The position numbers and the translations under genes were made by a program. A stretch of 64,000 nt of DNA, from assembly GCA_902625945.1 (NCBI GenBank), contig CACODG010000005.1:1-64000 (forward strand). Direction: 5' to 3'. Numbering within the stretch: the first letter of the stretch is position 1; each line of letters begins with the position of its first letter. This DNA is from an uncultured Pelagibacteraceae bacterium (GTDB taxonomy: Bacteria > Pseudomonadota > Alphaproteobacteria > Pelagibacterales > Pelagibacteraceae). Below are positions 2,974 to 7,771 of the stretch, one piece after another. The notes beneath the pieces are model-generated. The model made no database searches. It was not told the origin of the DNA and saw only the letters and a list, made by a program, of their open reading frames with translations.

Positions 2974-4081
2974 ATGAAAAATTATTTAGATTTTGAAAAA
3001 GAAATCAAAGCATTAGAGCAAGAAGTAGACAATTTAAAAAGCCCTTTTGGTTCTGAAGGGATCTCAGAAGTAGATACAAATAAAATTAAAAAACACTCAA
3101 CAAGAAATTAATCAAAAATTAGATGAAATTTATTCAAACCTTAATAGCTGGCAAAGAACACAAGTTGCAAGGCACGAGGATCGACCTAAAGCAAATTATT
3201 ATATTAAGAAAATTTTTTCTCAGTTTACCCTACTTTCAGGTGATAGATATTTTGGTGATGATAAATCAGTAATAGCTGGATTTGGTTTAATTGATAACAA
3301 ATCGGTTTTAATTATTGGCCAAGAAAAAGGTGAGGATTTGAATAGTAGAATTGAAAGAAATTTTGGAATGATGAGACCTGAGGGTTATCGTAAATGTATA
3401 AGATTAATGAAACTTGCAGATAGATTCCAGATACCAGTAATCAGTTTTATTGATACGCCAGGCGCTTATCCAGGTCTAGGTGCAGAACAAAGAGGGCAAG
3501 CATCTGCTATTGCTAATTCGATAGAATGTTGCATGTCTTTAACTGTTCCAAATATTTCAATTATAATTGGCGAAGGTGGTTCAGGAGGGGCTATCGCTTT
3601 GGCATCTTCAAACAAAGTGATTATGTTAGAGAATTCAATTTATTCTGTCATATCTCCCGAAGGGTGTGCTTCAATACTTTGGCGAGATCCAAGTAAATCA
3701 CTTCAAGCAGCAGAGGCAATGAAACTGACTGCAAAAGATTTATTAAAACTTAAAATCATTGACGAAATTATACCTGAACCATTGGGAGGTGCTCATCGTG
3801 ACCCAGAAAGTATTGCTAAAGATATAAAATTTTCAATTATTAAAAATTTAAAGAATTTTGAGAATTTCAGCAAAAATGAAATTTATGATCATAGAAAATC
3901 TAAATTTCTTGAAATCGGTAGAGATCAAGGTTTTAGCAAGTCATCAAATGTTAATGAGGGAAGTCTCTCTTATAAAGATAATGGCTTAAGAAAAATACAA
4001 GCTGTGCTTAATAAAAATAAGTACGTAGTTATAGGTTTAGTTTTAGTTGTAATATCGGGATTAATAGCAACATTATCTTAG
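2974..4081 (+). CDS. accA: Acetyl-CoA carboxylase carboxyltransferase subunit alpha (interrupted by +1 frameshift near 3088-3093)
   Basis: N-terminus MKNYLDFEKEIKALEQEVDNLKS in frame 1, then QQEINQKLDEIYSNLNSWQRTQVARHEDRPKANYYIKKIF...IDTPGAYPGLGAEQRGQ...GEGGSGGAIAL in frame 2. Confidence 0.9.
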
Positions 4082-4126
4082 CATTGTTGCAAAAAAACCA
4101 TTGCGTCAAATAATATAAATCTTCTA

Positions 4127-4182
4127 TTGACTTTCATCGTCCAAATCTATTAAAGGATCTACAAGACTAGCTAATGGCTAGT
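4127..4182 (+). promoter_or_regulatory. Possible promoter (TTGACT-17-TTAAAG) and 5'UTR hairpin (ACTAGC-TAATG-GCTAGT, 4166-4182) upstream of the cold shock gene
   Basis: -35-like hexamer 4127-4132, 17-nt spacer, -10-like hexamer 4150-4155; perfect 6-bp stem just upstream of the AAGGAAAC ribosome-binding region. Confidence 0.35.
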
Positions 4183-4214
4183 TAAAGTTAATAATAATAA
4201 GGAAACAAGTAAAT

Positions 4215-4427
4215 ATGAGTACACTAAAAGGTAAAGTAAAGTGGTTCAATGGTACTAAAGGATATGGTTTCATTGAAAGAGAAGACAAAGAAAAAGACGT
4301 GTTCGTTCATTCTTCAGCTGTTAGGGAAGCAGGTTTAAAATATTTAAACGAAGGTGATGAGTTAACGTTTGAAGTGGAGAGCACGGAAAAAGGTCCTTCA
4401 GCAGTAAAACTGCAGAAAACATCTTAA
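4215..4427 (+). CDS. Cold shock protein (CspA family)
   Basis: [31 protein letters not shown]. Confidence 0.95.
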
Positions 4428-4454
4428 TCTAAATTTCCAAAAATCACTGGTTAA

Positions 4455-4492
4455 CGGGGCATTAAGATAAGCTTAGCTTTTTTATTGTCCCG
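4455..4492 (+). other. Imperfect hairpin downstream of the csp gene (CGGGGCA/TGTCCCG stem, inner AAGC/GCTT stem and T-run)
   Basis: Stem 4455-4461 with 4486-4492 (one G-T pair); loop holds AAGCTTAGCTTTTTT. Confidence 0.4.
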
Positions 4493-4540
4493 CTAATTCC
4501 ATCTTGAAATAGACACATTTATTTATTAAATAATAATTAA

Positions 4541-4620
4541 TGATTATAAAAAAGAAATTATCTACACTTAGATCACATTCTCACAGAATGCACGCTAAGC
4601 TTTTGCTTAGCTTATAATCA
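4541..4620 (+). ncRNA. Candidate structured RNA with cloverleaf-like arrangement of perfect stems (strand inferred)
   Basis: Closing stem TGATTATAA 4541-4549 / TTATAATCA 4612-4620 encloses ATCTA/TAGAT (4560-4573), CATTCT/AGAATG (4576-4590) and GCTAAGC/GCTTAGC (4594-4611). Confidence 0.4.
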
Positions 4621-4665
4621 AAAATATATAAATTTTACAAAAATTAAGATAAATATAACTAGGAT

Positions 4666-4742
4666 GCAGCAGTAGCTCAGTTGGTTAGAGCACTAGTTTG
4701 TGGAACTAGGGGTCGGTGGTTCGAATCCACCCTGCTGTACCA
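4666..4742 (+). tRNA. tRNA-His (anticodon GTG), CCA encoded
   Basis: Cloverleaf: acceptor GCAGCAG/CTGCTGT, anticodon arm CTAGT-TTGTGGA-ACTAG, T arm GGTGG-TTCGAAT-CCACC, A73 then CCA. Confidence 0.95.
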
Positions 4743-4746
4743 AAAA

Positions 4747-6081
4747 ATGATAAAAGAAAAAAAAAACAAACCTTCTAAAGAACTACCATTAGGGTTTGTG
4801 GACAGACAAGAAAAAGAATTACTCGTAAGAGATTTCATAATTTCTAATATTAAAGAAGTTATGATCAAATATGGTTTTCAGTATCTCGAAACTCCTAGTT
4901 TTGAGTATTCAGATAGTATTGGAAAATTTTTACCAGATAAAGATAGACCTGATGAAGGTGTATTTTCATTTAAAGATGAAAATAAGTGGTTGTCTCTAAG
5001 GTATGATCTTACAGCACCGCTGGCGAGATATGTGGCAAAAAATTATTTAGAAATTCCTAAACCGTTTAAAAGATATCAATTAGGAACTGTTTGGAGAAAT
5101 GAAAAACCAGGGCCTGGAAGATTTAGAGAATTTTTACAATTTGACGCAGACTTTGTAGGAACAGAAAGCTTACAGGCAGATGCTGAGTTATGTGTCATGA
5201 CTTCAGAAATTCTTGAAAAGTGTGGTCTTACAAAATCAGAATATATAATTAAGATTTCATCTAGGAAAATCACTGAAGAATTATTTAAAAAAATTAATAT
5301 AAATGACATTCAACAAAAACTTACTGCCCTTAGAGCACTAGATAAAATTGATAGACTTGGTTGGAATGGAGTGAAAGAATTATTAGGTGAGGGAAGAAAA
5401 GATAAATCTGGTGATTTCACAAAAGGTGCAAATTTAAAGCCAGAGGATATTAAAACGATAGAAGAAACACTTAAGAAGAATGCACCTGAAACAGAAGATT
5501 TAGTTGAGATATTGAAAATTTTTAAAGATTACAATTTTAATAATTTTGAATTCGATCCTTCAGTTATTCGAGGACTAGAATATTATACCGGAGCAATTTT
5601 TGAGGTGAATTTAAAATTCGATATAACAAATAATAAAGGGCAAGTAATTCAATTTGGATCCATAGGAGGCGGTGGAAGGTACGATAATTTGATAAATAAT
5701 TTTGGTAATTACGATGCTCCTGCTACAGGAATATCTATTGGCCTAGATCGTTTAGTTTATGCTTTAATGCAAAAAAAAGAATTTAAAGTAAAACAATCTA
5801 AACCAGTTGTAATTTGTGTATTCGATAAAAATTCAATGAAAGATTATATAGATGTTCAAACAATATTAAGAAAGGGTGGCATTAGTGCTGAAATTTACCC
5901 TGGAGAAAGTAAACTAAAAAAACAAATGGAGTATGCGAATAAAATAAAATCCCCAGCAGTTGTTTTATACGGTGAGAATGAAATTAAATCAGGGAAGCCG
6001 ACGTTAAGGAATCTAAGTTCAGGTGAAGAAAAATCAATTGAGATAAAAGAATTAATTAATGAAATCAAAAAAATTATCTGA
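4747..6081 (+). CDS. hisS: Histidyl-tRNA synthetase
   Basis: LRYDLTAPLARYVAKN, FKRYQLGTVWRNEKPGPGRFREFLQFDAD, RGLEYYTGAIFEV, GGGGRYDNLI, ATGISIGLDRL; ATG 4747 is in frame with the ORF-track entry. Confidence 0.95.
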   Translation: MIKEKKNKPSKELPLGFVDRQEKELLVRDFIISNIKEVMIKYGFQYLETPSFEYSDSIGKFLPDKDRPDEGVFSFKDENKWLSLRYDLTAPLARYVAKNYLEIPKPFKRYQLGTVWRNEKPGPGRFREFLQFDADFVGTESLQADAELCVMTSEILEKCGLTKSEYIIKISSRKITEELFKKININDIQQKLTALRALDKIDRLGWNGVKELLGEGRKDKSGDFTKGANLKPEDIKTIEETLKKNAPETEDLVEILKIFKDYNFNNFEFDPSVIRGLEYYTGAIFEVNLKFDITNNKGQVIQFGSIGGGGRYDNLINNFGNYDAPATGISIGLDRLVYALMQKKEFKVKQSKPVVICVFDKNSMKDYIDVQTILRKGGISAEIYPGESKLKKQMEYANKIKSPAVVLYGENEIKSGKPTLRNLSSGEEKSIEIKELINEIKKII

Positions 6082-7097
6082 AGTTATAATTAAAACCTTT
6101 AAGAATAATGGTTTTGTTTTATCGGAACCTGATGTTCTTTTAGACTCAGATTATATCATTGAAAGGTCTGGAGAAAAATTTAGAAGTTCAATGCTTACTT
6201 TTGATAGAGAAGATGGAAAAACTATGTGTTTAAGACCAGACCTAACAGTCGCTTCATGTATAAATTTCTTGCAAAAAAAAACTTCCTCAAAAATTTATTA
6301 TTCTGGTCAAGCATATAGAAGATCAGCCGGCAAAGGTACAAGCTTTATAAATGATCAATTAGGTATCGAAATTCTAGGTTCAAAAAATCTTATTAAAGAT
6401 GATTTTAAAGTAATTAGCACAATCTTAAGTTCAGCCAAAAAAATTAAAATGAAAAAAATTAAAATTAAAGTCAGTGACATAGGTTTATTTAAGAGCTTAA
6501 TTGACGCTCTTGAGATGCCTGAAAGATGGAAGTTAAGATTAATTAGACACTTTTGGAGACCAAGCTACTTTGAGGAACTTTTAAAGAGATTAGAAAAAAA
6601 TACAGATATTGATGCGGTAACTTTTGATACAGATAAAAAAAGATTTTATGAAATGAAAAAACTAGACCAAGACAAAGTGATTGCTGGAAGATCAGTATTG
6701 GAAATTTTAAAAAGATTTGAAAAAAAGATAAAAGATCCAAGATCTTTTGAAGACGGGAAAAAAATTGTAAAAATTATCAAAACCTTTTTAAAAATTAATT
6801 GCAAACTTTCAAAACTTGATGATGAGCTATTAAATTTTGCAAAAAAGAATAACCTTAAAAAAAAATATATTTAAAAATTTTAAATCTATTCAAAATTTAA
6901 AAAAACTTAATCAAAACATTAATTTTGTTACAAATTTTGGTAGAGATGTTGAATATTATACTGGAATTGTATTTGAGGTATTTTCAGGCACAAAAGAAAT
7001 TGCCTCGGGAGGTCGTTATGATGACTTGCTTCAAAGTTTAGGTGCTAAAAAGAGTATCCCTGCCGTTGGGGCAGCAATAAACTTAAAAAATATATGA
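6059..7097 (+). CDS. hisZ: ATP phosphoribosyltransferase regulatory subunit HisZ (interrupted by frameshift at the A9 run 6857-6865)
   Basis: HisRS-like: CLRPDLTVASCINFL, YYSGQAYRRS, then in the next frame GRDVEYYTGIVFEVFSG...IASGGRYDDLLQSLG; followed by hisG. Confidence 0.85.
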
Positions 7098-7771
7098 AAA
7101 ATTTAATTACAATAGGTTTACCAAGTAAAGGGCGATTAAAAGAAAAATCATTGTCATTTTTTAGTGATAGAAGGTTGAATATTTTACAAAGCGAAAAAGA
7201 AAGAAATTATTTTGGCACCATCGAAAACAATGCCAATATTAAGATTATATTTCTACATGCTAAAGAGATTATTCAAAGATTAGGAGACGGTACTTTAGAT
7301 ATTGGTATTTCTGGTCTAGATCTTTTTAAAGAGTCAGACAAAAATTTACAAGGCAAAATAAATATCCAAAAAAAACTTGATTATGGAAATGCGAACCTAG
7401 TTATTGCTGTACCAGATGACTGGATAGATGTGCAGACTATCGCTGATCTTGAAGAAATATCATTTGATATAAGATCCAAAAGAAATACTAGGTTGAGAGT
7501 AGCAACTAAGTATCCAAATTTAACTAATGATTTTTTGATTTCAAAAGGAGTTACTCAATACAAATTAATACCTAGTCTTGGTGCTACAGAGACGTATCCT
7601 TTTATAGGCTCTTCAGAGATAATTACTGATATTACATCTACAGGGAAAACTTTGGCTGATAATAATCTAAGAGTTCTTAAAGATGGATTGATACTTAGTT
7701 CAAGAGCATGTTTGTTTATTGCAAAAAAAAAAGGCTGCAAAATTGCAGCCTTTTTTAAAATCTTTGGGTAG
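7094..7771 (+). CDS. hisG: ATP phosphoribosyltransferase catalytic subunit (short form)
   Basis: ITIGLPSKGRLKEKSL, RLGDGTLDIGISGLDLF, EISFDIRSKRNTRLRVATKYPNLT, ATETYPFIGSSEIITDITSTGKTL; ATGA overlap with hisZ. Confidence 0.95.
   Translation: MKNLITIGLPSKGRLKEKSLSFFSDRRLNILQSEKERNYFGTIENNANIKIIFLHAKEIIQRLGDGTLDIGISGLDLFKESDKNLQGKINIQKKLDYGNANLVIAVPDDWIDVQTIADLEEISFDIRSKRNTRLRVATKYPNLTNDFLISKGVTQYKLIPSLGATETYPFIGSSEIITDITSTGKTLADNNLRVLKDGLILSSRACLFIAKKKGCKIAAFFKIFG
7723..7756. terminator. Bidirectional intrinsic terminator, A10-GGCTGCA-AAAT-TGCAGCC-T6, inside the 3' end of hisG
   Basis: Perfect 7-bp GC-rich stem flanked by A10 and T6 at the convergent hisG/groEL junction. Confidence 0.85.

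Follow-up and report, generated by a model that had tools for sequence, protein, structure and literature searches.

A putative histidine leader peptide within a conserved RNA structure upstream of tRNA-His, hisS, hisZ and hisG in SAR11 bacteria

Locus and data set

The window, a stretch of 64,000 nucleotides, is part of a SAR11 (Pelagibacteraceae) genome. The leader described here, its promoter and the genes that follow are on its forward strand; the leader lies in the gap between csp and a tRNA-His. The first downstream gene is a tRNA-His (GTG) at 4666-4742, which is placed there by ARAGORN and recovered by the Rfam tRNA model; the genuine tRNA-His noted nearby in the original prediction is thus confirmed. 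It is followed by hisS, which encodes histidine--tRNA ligase (4747-6081, TIGR00442 above cut-off), hisZ, for the ATP phosphoribosyltransferase regulatory subunit (6059-7097), and hisG, for ATP phosphoribosyltransferase (7094-7771, TIGR00070 above cut-off). In the window hisZ consists of two overlapping frames, both of which match HisZ models, and the split falls at a run of nine A (6857-6865). Since most of the relatives checked carry hisZ as one unbroken frame of 345 codons, the split is attributed to a sequencing or assembly error or to a recent frameshift.

The csp/tRNA-His gaps of relatives were collected via DNA similarity and via hisS, which yielded 101 loci and 87 distinct sequences, with gaps of approximately 227-244 bases. 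A promoter conserved in the aligned gaps is located at 4504-4532, with TTGAAA (4504-4509), a 17-base spacer and TAAATA (4527-4532). An ATG follows at 4540, seven bases after TAAATA, and the promoter-to-ATG spacing is conserved among relatives, the distance from TTGAAA to the ATG being 34-36 bases where scored. With the usual geometry of such promoters, transcription would begin within a base or two of this ATG. Hence, the transcription start is predicted at about 4539-4540, and a leaderless or near-leaderless message is expected.

Two further elements were observed in the gap. The hairpin at 4457-4494, after csp, is conserved with compensated changes (CGGGACA...TGTCCCG); it has no U-tract in the window genus, and an ordinary U-tract terminator is found there in genus g6. 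A conserved -10-like element at 4645-4650, about 15-20 bases 5' of the tRNA, reads TAAGAT, TAATAT or TAGTAT in relatives; it has no clear -35, and may be a second promoter for tRNA-His.

Folding and conservation of the helices

A cloverleaf-like arrangement at 4541-4620, in which a closing helix encloses three hairpins, had been proposed as a novel structured RNA. The four helices are present exactly where they had been placed, and that structure is precisely what energy minimization yields for 4541-4620. Its energy is -21.8 kcal/mol, against a mean of -8.2 (sd 2.5) for dinucleotide-shuffled sequences (z -5.5), and 0/200 shuffles fold as well. In this region ARAGORN and Rfam detect no tRNA or tRNA-like RNA besides tRNA-His at 4666-4742. 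No Rfam family matches the structured element, a permissive threshold returning only the tRNA and chance matches. In particular, the Rfam His_leader (RF00514) has no match in 3800-5200 with E up to 10, nor in 14 related loci with E up to 1.

Conservation differs among the helices. Hairpin P3 (4594-4611), which in the reading frame described below directly follows the last His codon and ends immediately 5' of the final codon, is fully paired in 87/87 close relatives. It is also present, with changed sequence, in 145/146 leaders from eight genera, its arms including GCTARGC/GCTTAGC, GCTGGC/GCTAGC, ATAGCC/GGCTAT and GCTAAGC/GCTTGGC. In 127 of 145 leaders, the first base of P3 comes immediately after a His codon. 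Hairpin P2 (4576-4590), which lies on the His codons, is paired in 94% of cells and presents the compensated changes CACTC/GAGTG and CACAC/GTGTG, both of which alter the peptide; the form of P2 seen in the window is confined to two genera.

The closing helix P1 is formed by 4541-4549, which overlaps the start codon, and 4612-4620, which overlaps the stop codon. It is paired in 85% of cells, being complete in 50 and incomplete in 37 of the 87 close relatives. Across genera its mean duplex energy is -5.20 kcal/mol. Exchanging strands between genera weakens this to -3.32 (sd 0.20, 300 trials), and exchanging them within genera to -4.58 (sd 0.18). The two strands thus change together across genera, although in g9 and g10 P1 is weak or missing altogether. 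Only 2/87 relatives have hairpin 1 (4560-4573) complete, and a shift by one base yields pairing that is at least as good; it is therefore a chance feature. Hence, comparative analysis supports hairpins 2 and 3 and the closing helix, with compensatory changes in hairpin 2 and covariation in the closing helix, but not hairpin 1.

A conserved reading frame with histidine codons

Judging from its conservation among relatives, the stretch 4540-4617 is a protein-coding leader ORF with His codons, a feature that the original prediction had overlooked. It comprises 25 codons, MIIKKKLSTLRSHSHRMHAKLLLSL, and ends with the stop TAA at 4615-4617; the His codons are at 4576-4578, 4582-4584 and 4591-4593. 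The ATG and the frame are intact in 87/87 distinct relatives, with 23-26 codons and neither stops nor frameshifts, and the frame ends in HSHRMHARLLLS(L) or a near-identical sequence. Frame 0 contains 0 stops in 2190 codons, whereas the other two frames contain 205 and 249, and are broken in 85/87 and 87/87 of the distinct relatives. In the alignment of the gaps, indels occur in steps of three and the variation is wobble-like.

The nucleotide sequence appears to be under selection as RNA in addition to peptide. In a tally made from the codon table for the window genus, in which the outermost pair of P2 was classed with the outside positions, the wobble bases inside P2 and P3 show about 4 changes over seven sites, against 58 changes over four sites outside them. 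It is this near-absence of change at paired wobble positions that points to selection on the RNA.

These data bear on the possibility that the ORF specifies a small protein that is functional in itself, its place before tRNA-His being secondary. The C-terminal part, HSHRMHARLLLS, is very conserved in the window genus, as such a protein would have it. Between genera, however, the peptide sequence is almost wholly different, while the His codons, P3 and the position are retained, and the constraint on paired wobble bases is one on RNA. We consider a small protein unlikely.

Distribution of the leader in SAR11

A short His-bearing ORF precedes tRNA-His-hisS or hisS in every SAR11 genus examined. 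It is found at the same place in all 39 further loci of the window's family and in all 21 loci of a second SAR11 family. In the window's family the His codons are clustered yet non-consecutive. The leader ORFs of other genera adjoin promoter-like sequence, examples being MIKKTETSRITHRHHFHAGCTLAI, MTKKNISTHRHHSHAGHTLGQ and MKNIVLNHTHHHTHAKHGLGN. When enrichment is defined as three His in nine residues and compared with shuffled sequences, 73 of the 80 loci reach the threshold: 52/59 (shuffles 1.2%) and, in the second family, 21/21 (shuffles 0%). The loci below this threshold that were inspected carry two His.

A profile search with the leader peptide matches 48 genomes of the same genus and members of one further genus. 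Three listed genomes of this genus gave no match, and their assemblies lack hisS as well. Across the whole class, the profile search returned nothing convincing beyond SAR11, and among 28 other alphaproteobacterial hisS upstream regions inspected there is one His-rich frame, which may be due to chance.

In the second family, an example of the leader is MFKFKHHHYHI, directly before hisS. Between the 11-codon leader of this family (L174, L175, L280-L298) and hisS lie a further hairpin and a conserved ACCCC(C) motif, but no tRNA. Judged on these sequences, the leader design of this family seems to differ from that of the window.

The distribution is also relevant to a reading in which the leader peptide has no part in histidine regulation and the leader serves only the processing or stability of the tRNA-bearing transcript. 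The missing terminator and the position of tRNA-His as first downstream gene are consistent with it. However, His codons are specifically enriched before His genes in every genus examined, and this enrichment includes the second family, in which no tRNA-His intervenes. Such a role alone is thus quite improbable.

A further reading is the non-coding one of the original prediction, a stand-alone structured RNA of about 80 bases in which the frame is incidental. It would account for the strong fold, the conserved P3, the covarying P2 and P1 and the presence of a dedicated promoter. Nevertheless, it requires that no reading frame be conserved, and is rejected because frame 0 is free of stops and frameshifts in 87/87 relatives while the other frames are broken. 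Moreover, His codons are kept in other genera despite different peptides, and the window has no U-tract terminator with which a discrete RNA would end. We regard a stand-alone RNA as very improbable: what stands of the proposed novel structured RNA is a conserved structured element without an Rfam match, and what lacks support is its tRNA-like, non-coding character. The cloverleaf look would be the shape the mRNA adopts with no ribosome on it. Direct binding of a ligand or of uncharged tRNA-His by the RNA, as in a riboswitch or T-box-like element with a passive ORF, would suit a structured leader 5' of tRNA, synthetase and biosynthetic genes, but it is highly improbable, given no T-box or known riboswitch model in Rfam matches 3800-5200 or the related loci, and it leaves the conservation of the ORF and its His codons unexplained.

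Proposed mechanism

The leader sits between the promoter and the His genes tRNA-His, hisS, hisZ and hisG. From the sequence comparisons, it is most probably a histidine leader peptide that controls these four genes through ribosome stalling. It would be the leader of a tRNA-His-hisS-hisZ-hisG transcription unit, its peptide being read from a leaderless or near-leaderless transcript with the start predicted above, and the ribosome would be what senses charged tRNA-His.

When charged tRNA-His is scarce, the ribosome would stall on the His codons within the loop, leaving P1 free to form; a stall at the last His codon would cover the 5' arm of P3. When charged tRNA-His is plentiful, the ribosome would reach the stop at 4615 and cover the 3' arm of P3 together with the 3' strand of P1. 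The shape of the RNA would hence report the histidine supply and set the output of tRNA-His, HisRS and HisZ/HisG.

Folding with the bases under a ribosome masked, either on the His codons or at the stop codon, was performed for the window and for L179, L170, L161, L172 and L168. In the window, P1 is still possible around a ribosome on the His codons, and a ribosome at the stop removes both P1 and P3. L179 behaves as the window does, and L170 matches it where the ribosome is on the last His codon. L161 does not form P1, L172 forms it in a single stalled fold only, and in L168 the presence of a ribosome leads to its replacement. The masked folds of other genera thus agree only in part with those of the window. 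From these folds we propose that the position of the ribosome, as set by charged tRNA-His, selects the fold.

Classical transcription attenuation, in which a terminator competes with an antiterminator, does not describe the window. An intrinsic terminator is absent in 136/145 leaders; terminator-like sites with a U-tract occur in the remaining 9/145, all from one genus other than the window's, so this mechanism is unavailable in the window, and P3 was rejected as an intrinsic terminator there. Given the absence of an intrinsic terminator in the window, the output is probably operon read-through that depends on Rho or pausing, or else a processing step on the tRNA-bearing transcript. Rho is encoded in the genome.

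A more specific model is offered tentatively, as a possibility with somewhat less than an even chance of being right. The leader would be a terminator-free, ribosome-controlled switch in which a leaderless ORF lies in a loop closed by pairing between its start region and sequence that surrounds and follows its stop. Whether the ribosome stays in the loop (starved) or sits at its exit (fed) would decide the fold, and thereby the action of Rho on, or the processing of, a transcript headed by the tRNA that is itself being sensed.

Comparison with known systems

A leaderless start is known for the trpL of Sinorhizobium meliloti. This system (peTrpL, PMC7298713) resembles the present one in being an alphaproteobacterial leader peptide before an amino-acid operon, but it concerns Trp, has an attenuator terminator, and its peptide acts in trans too. 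Gamma-proteobacteria and some Firmicutes are well known to have His leader peptides and attenuators (PMC9413887, PMC2965389), and the leader/attenuator mechanism of the his operon has been described in enteric bacteria (PMC9413887). Like the enteric his leader, that of SAR11 is a short ORF with clustered His codons between the promoter and the his genes, overlapping RNA hairpins, and we infer that sensing is by ribosome stalling as in that system. Unlike it, the window has neither an intrinsic terminator/antiterminator pair nor an Rfam match, the ORF is predicted to be leaderless inside a closing helix, and the first downstream gene is tRNA-His. In bacilli, histidine leader peptides precede hisS* and hisZ (Naville and Gautheret 2010, PMC2965389). 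There too the leader stands before synthetase-family genes, although these bacteria belong to another phylum and the candidates were found via premature Rho-independent terminators.

Structured intergenic RNAs that are conserved in the same organism group were reported by a Pelagibacter ubique screen (Meyer et al. 2009, PMC2704228). Given this screen dropped tRNA-containing intergenic regions from its table, the csp/tRNA-His locus lies outside it. A literature search that covered few subscription papers returned no report of the leader in SAR11; earlier proteobacterial attenuator surveys could hold one.

SAR11 rank among the ocean's most abundant cells, and have streamlined genomes and few known regulators. 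The retention of such a leader in all genera examined would imply that they still pay for ribosome-based histidine sensing, with one sensor in front of the tRNA, the cognate synthetase and the initial step of histidine synthesis. With a single sensor ahead of these genes and the usual terminator missing, the mechanism is directly testable. The locus is also a warning for structured-RNA screens, in which leader ORFs can pass for non-coding RNAs, and which miss leaders of this sort when they discard tRNA-bearing gaps.

Features of tRNA-His

The tRNA-His of the window has T at position -1 and A73 (4664-4666 and 4739). A tRNA-His with T-1/A73 and no encoded G-1 is of the derived alphaproteobacterial type (PMC3937112). 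In some g6 genomes (L176, L177, L180, L181), an odd tRNA-His precedes a divergent hisS, which is 45-47% identical to that of the window. This tRNA is missed by ARAGORN and has the T loop AGCGTAA and a short D loop; the L176 copy obtains an Rfam tRNA score of 48 bits. In several genera (L161-L167), AAGGAGTTATG is found just 5' of tRNA-His; in the fold of L161 its partner is the D-arm strand TAGCTC, so that an anti-tRNA fold is possible.
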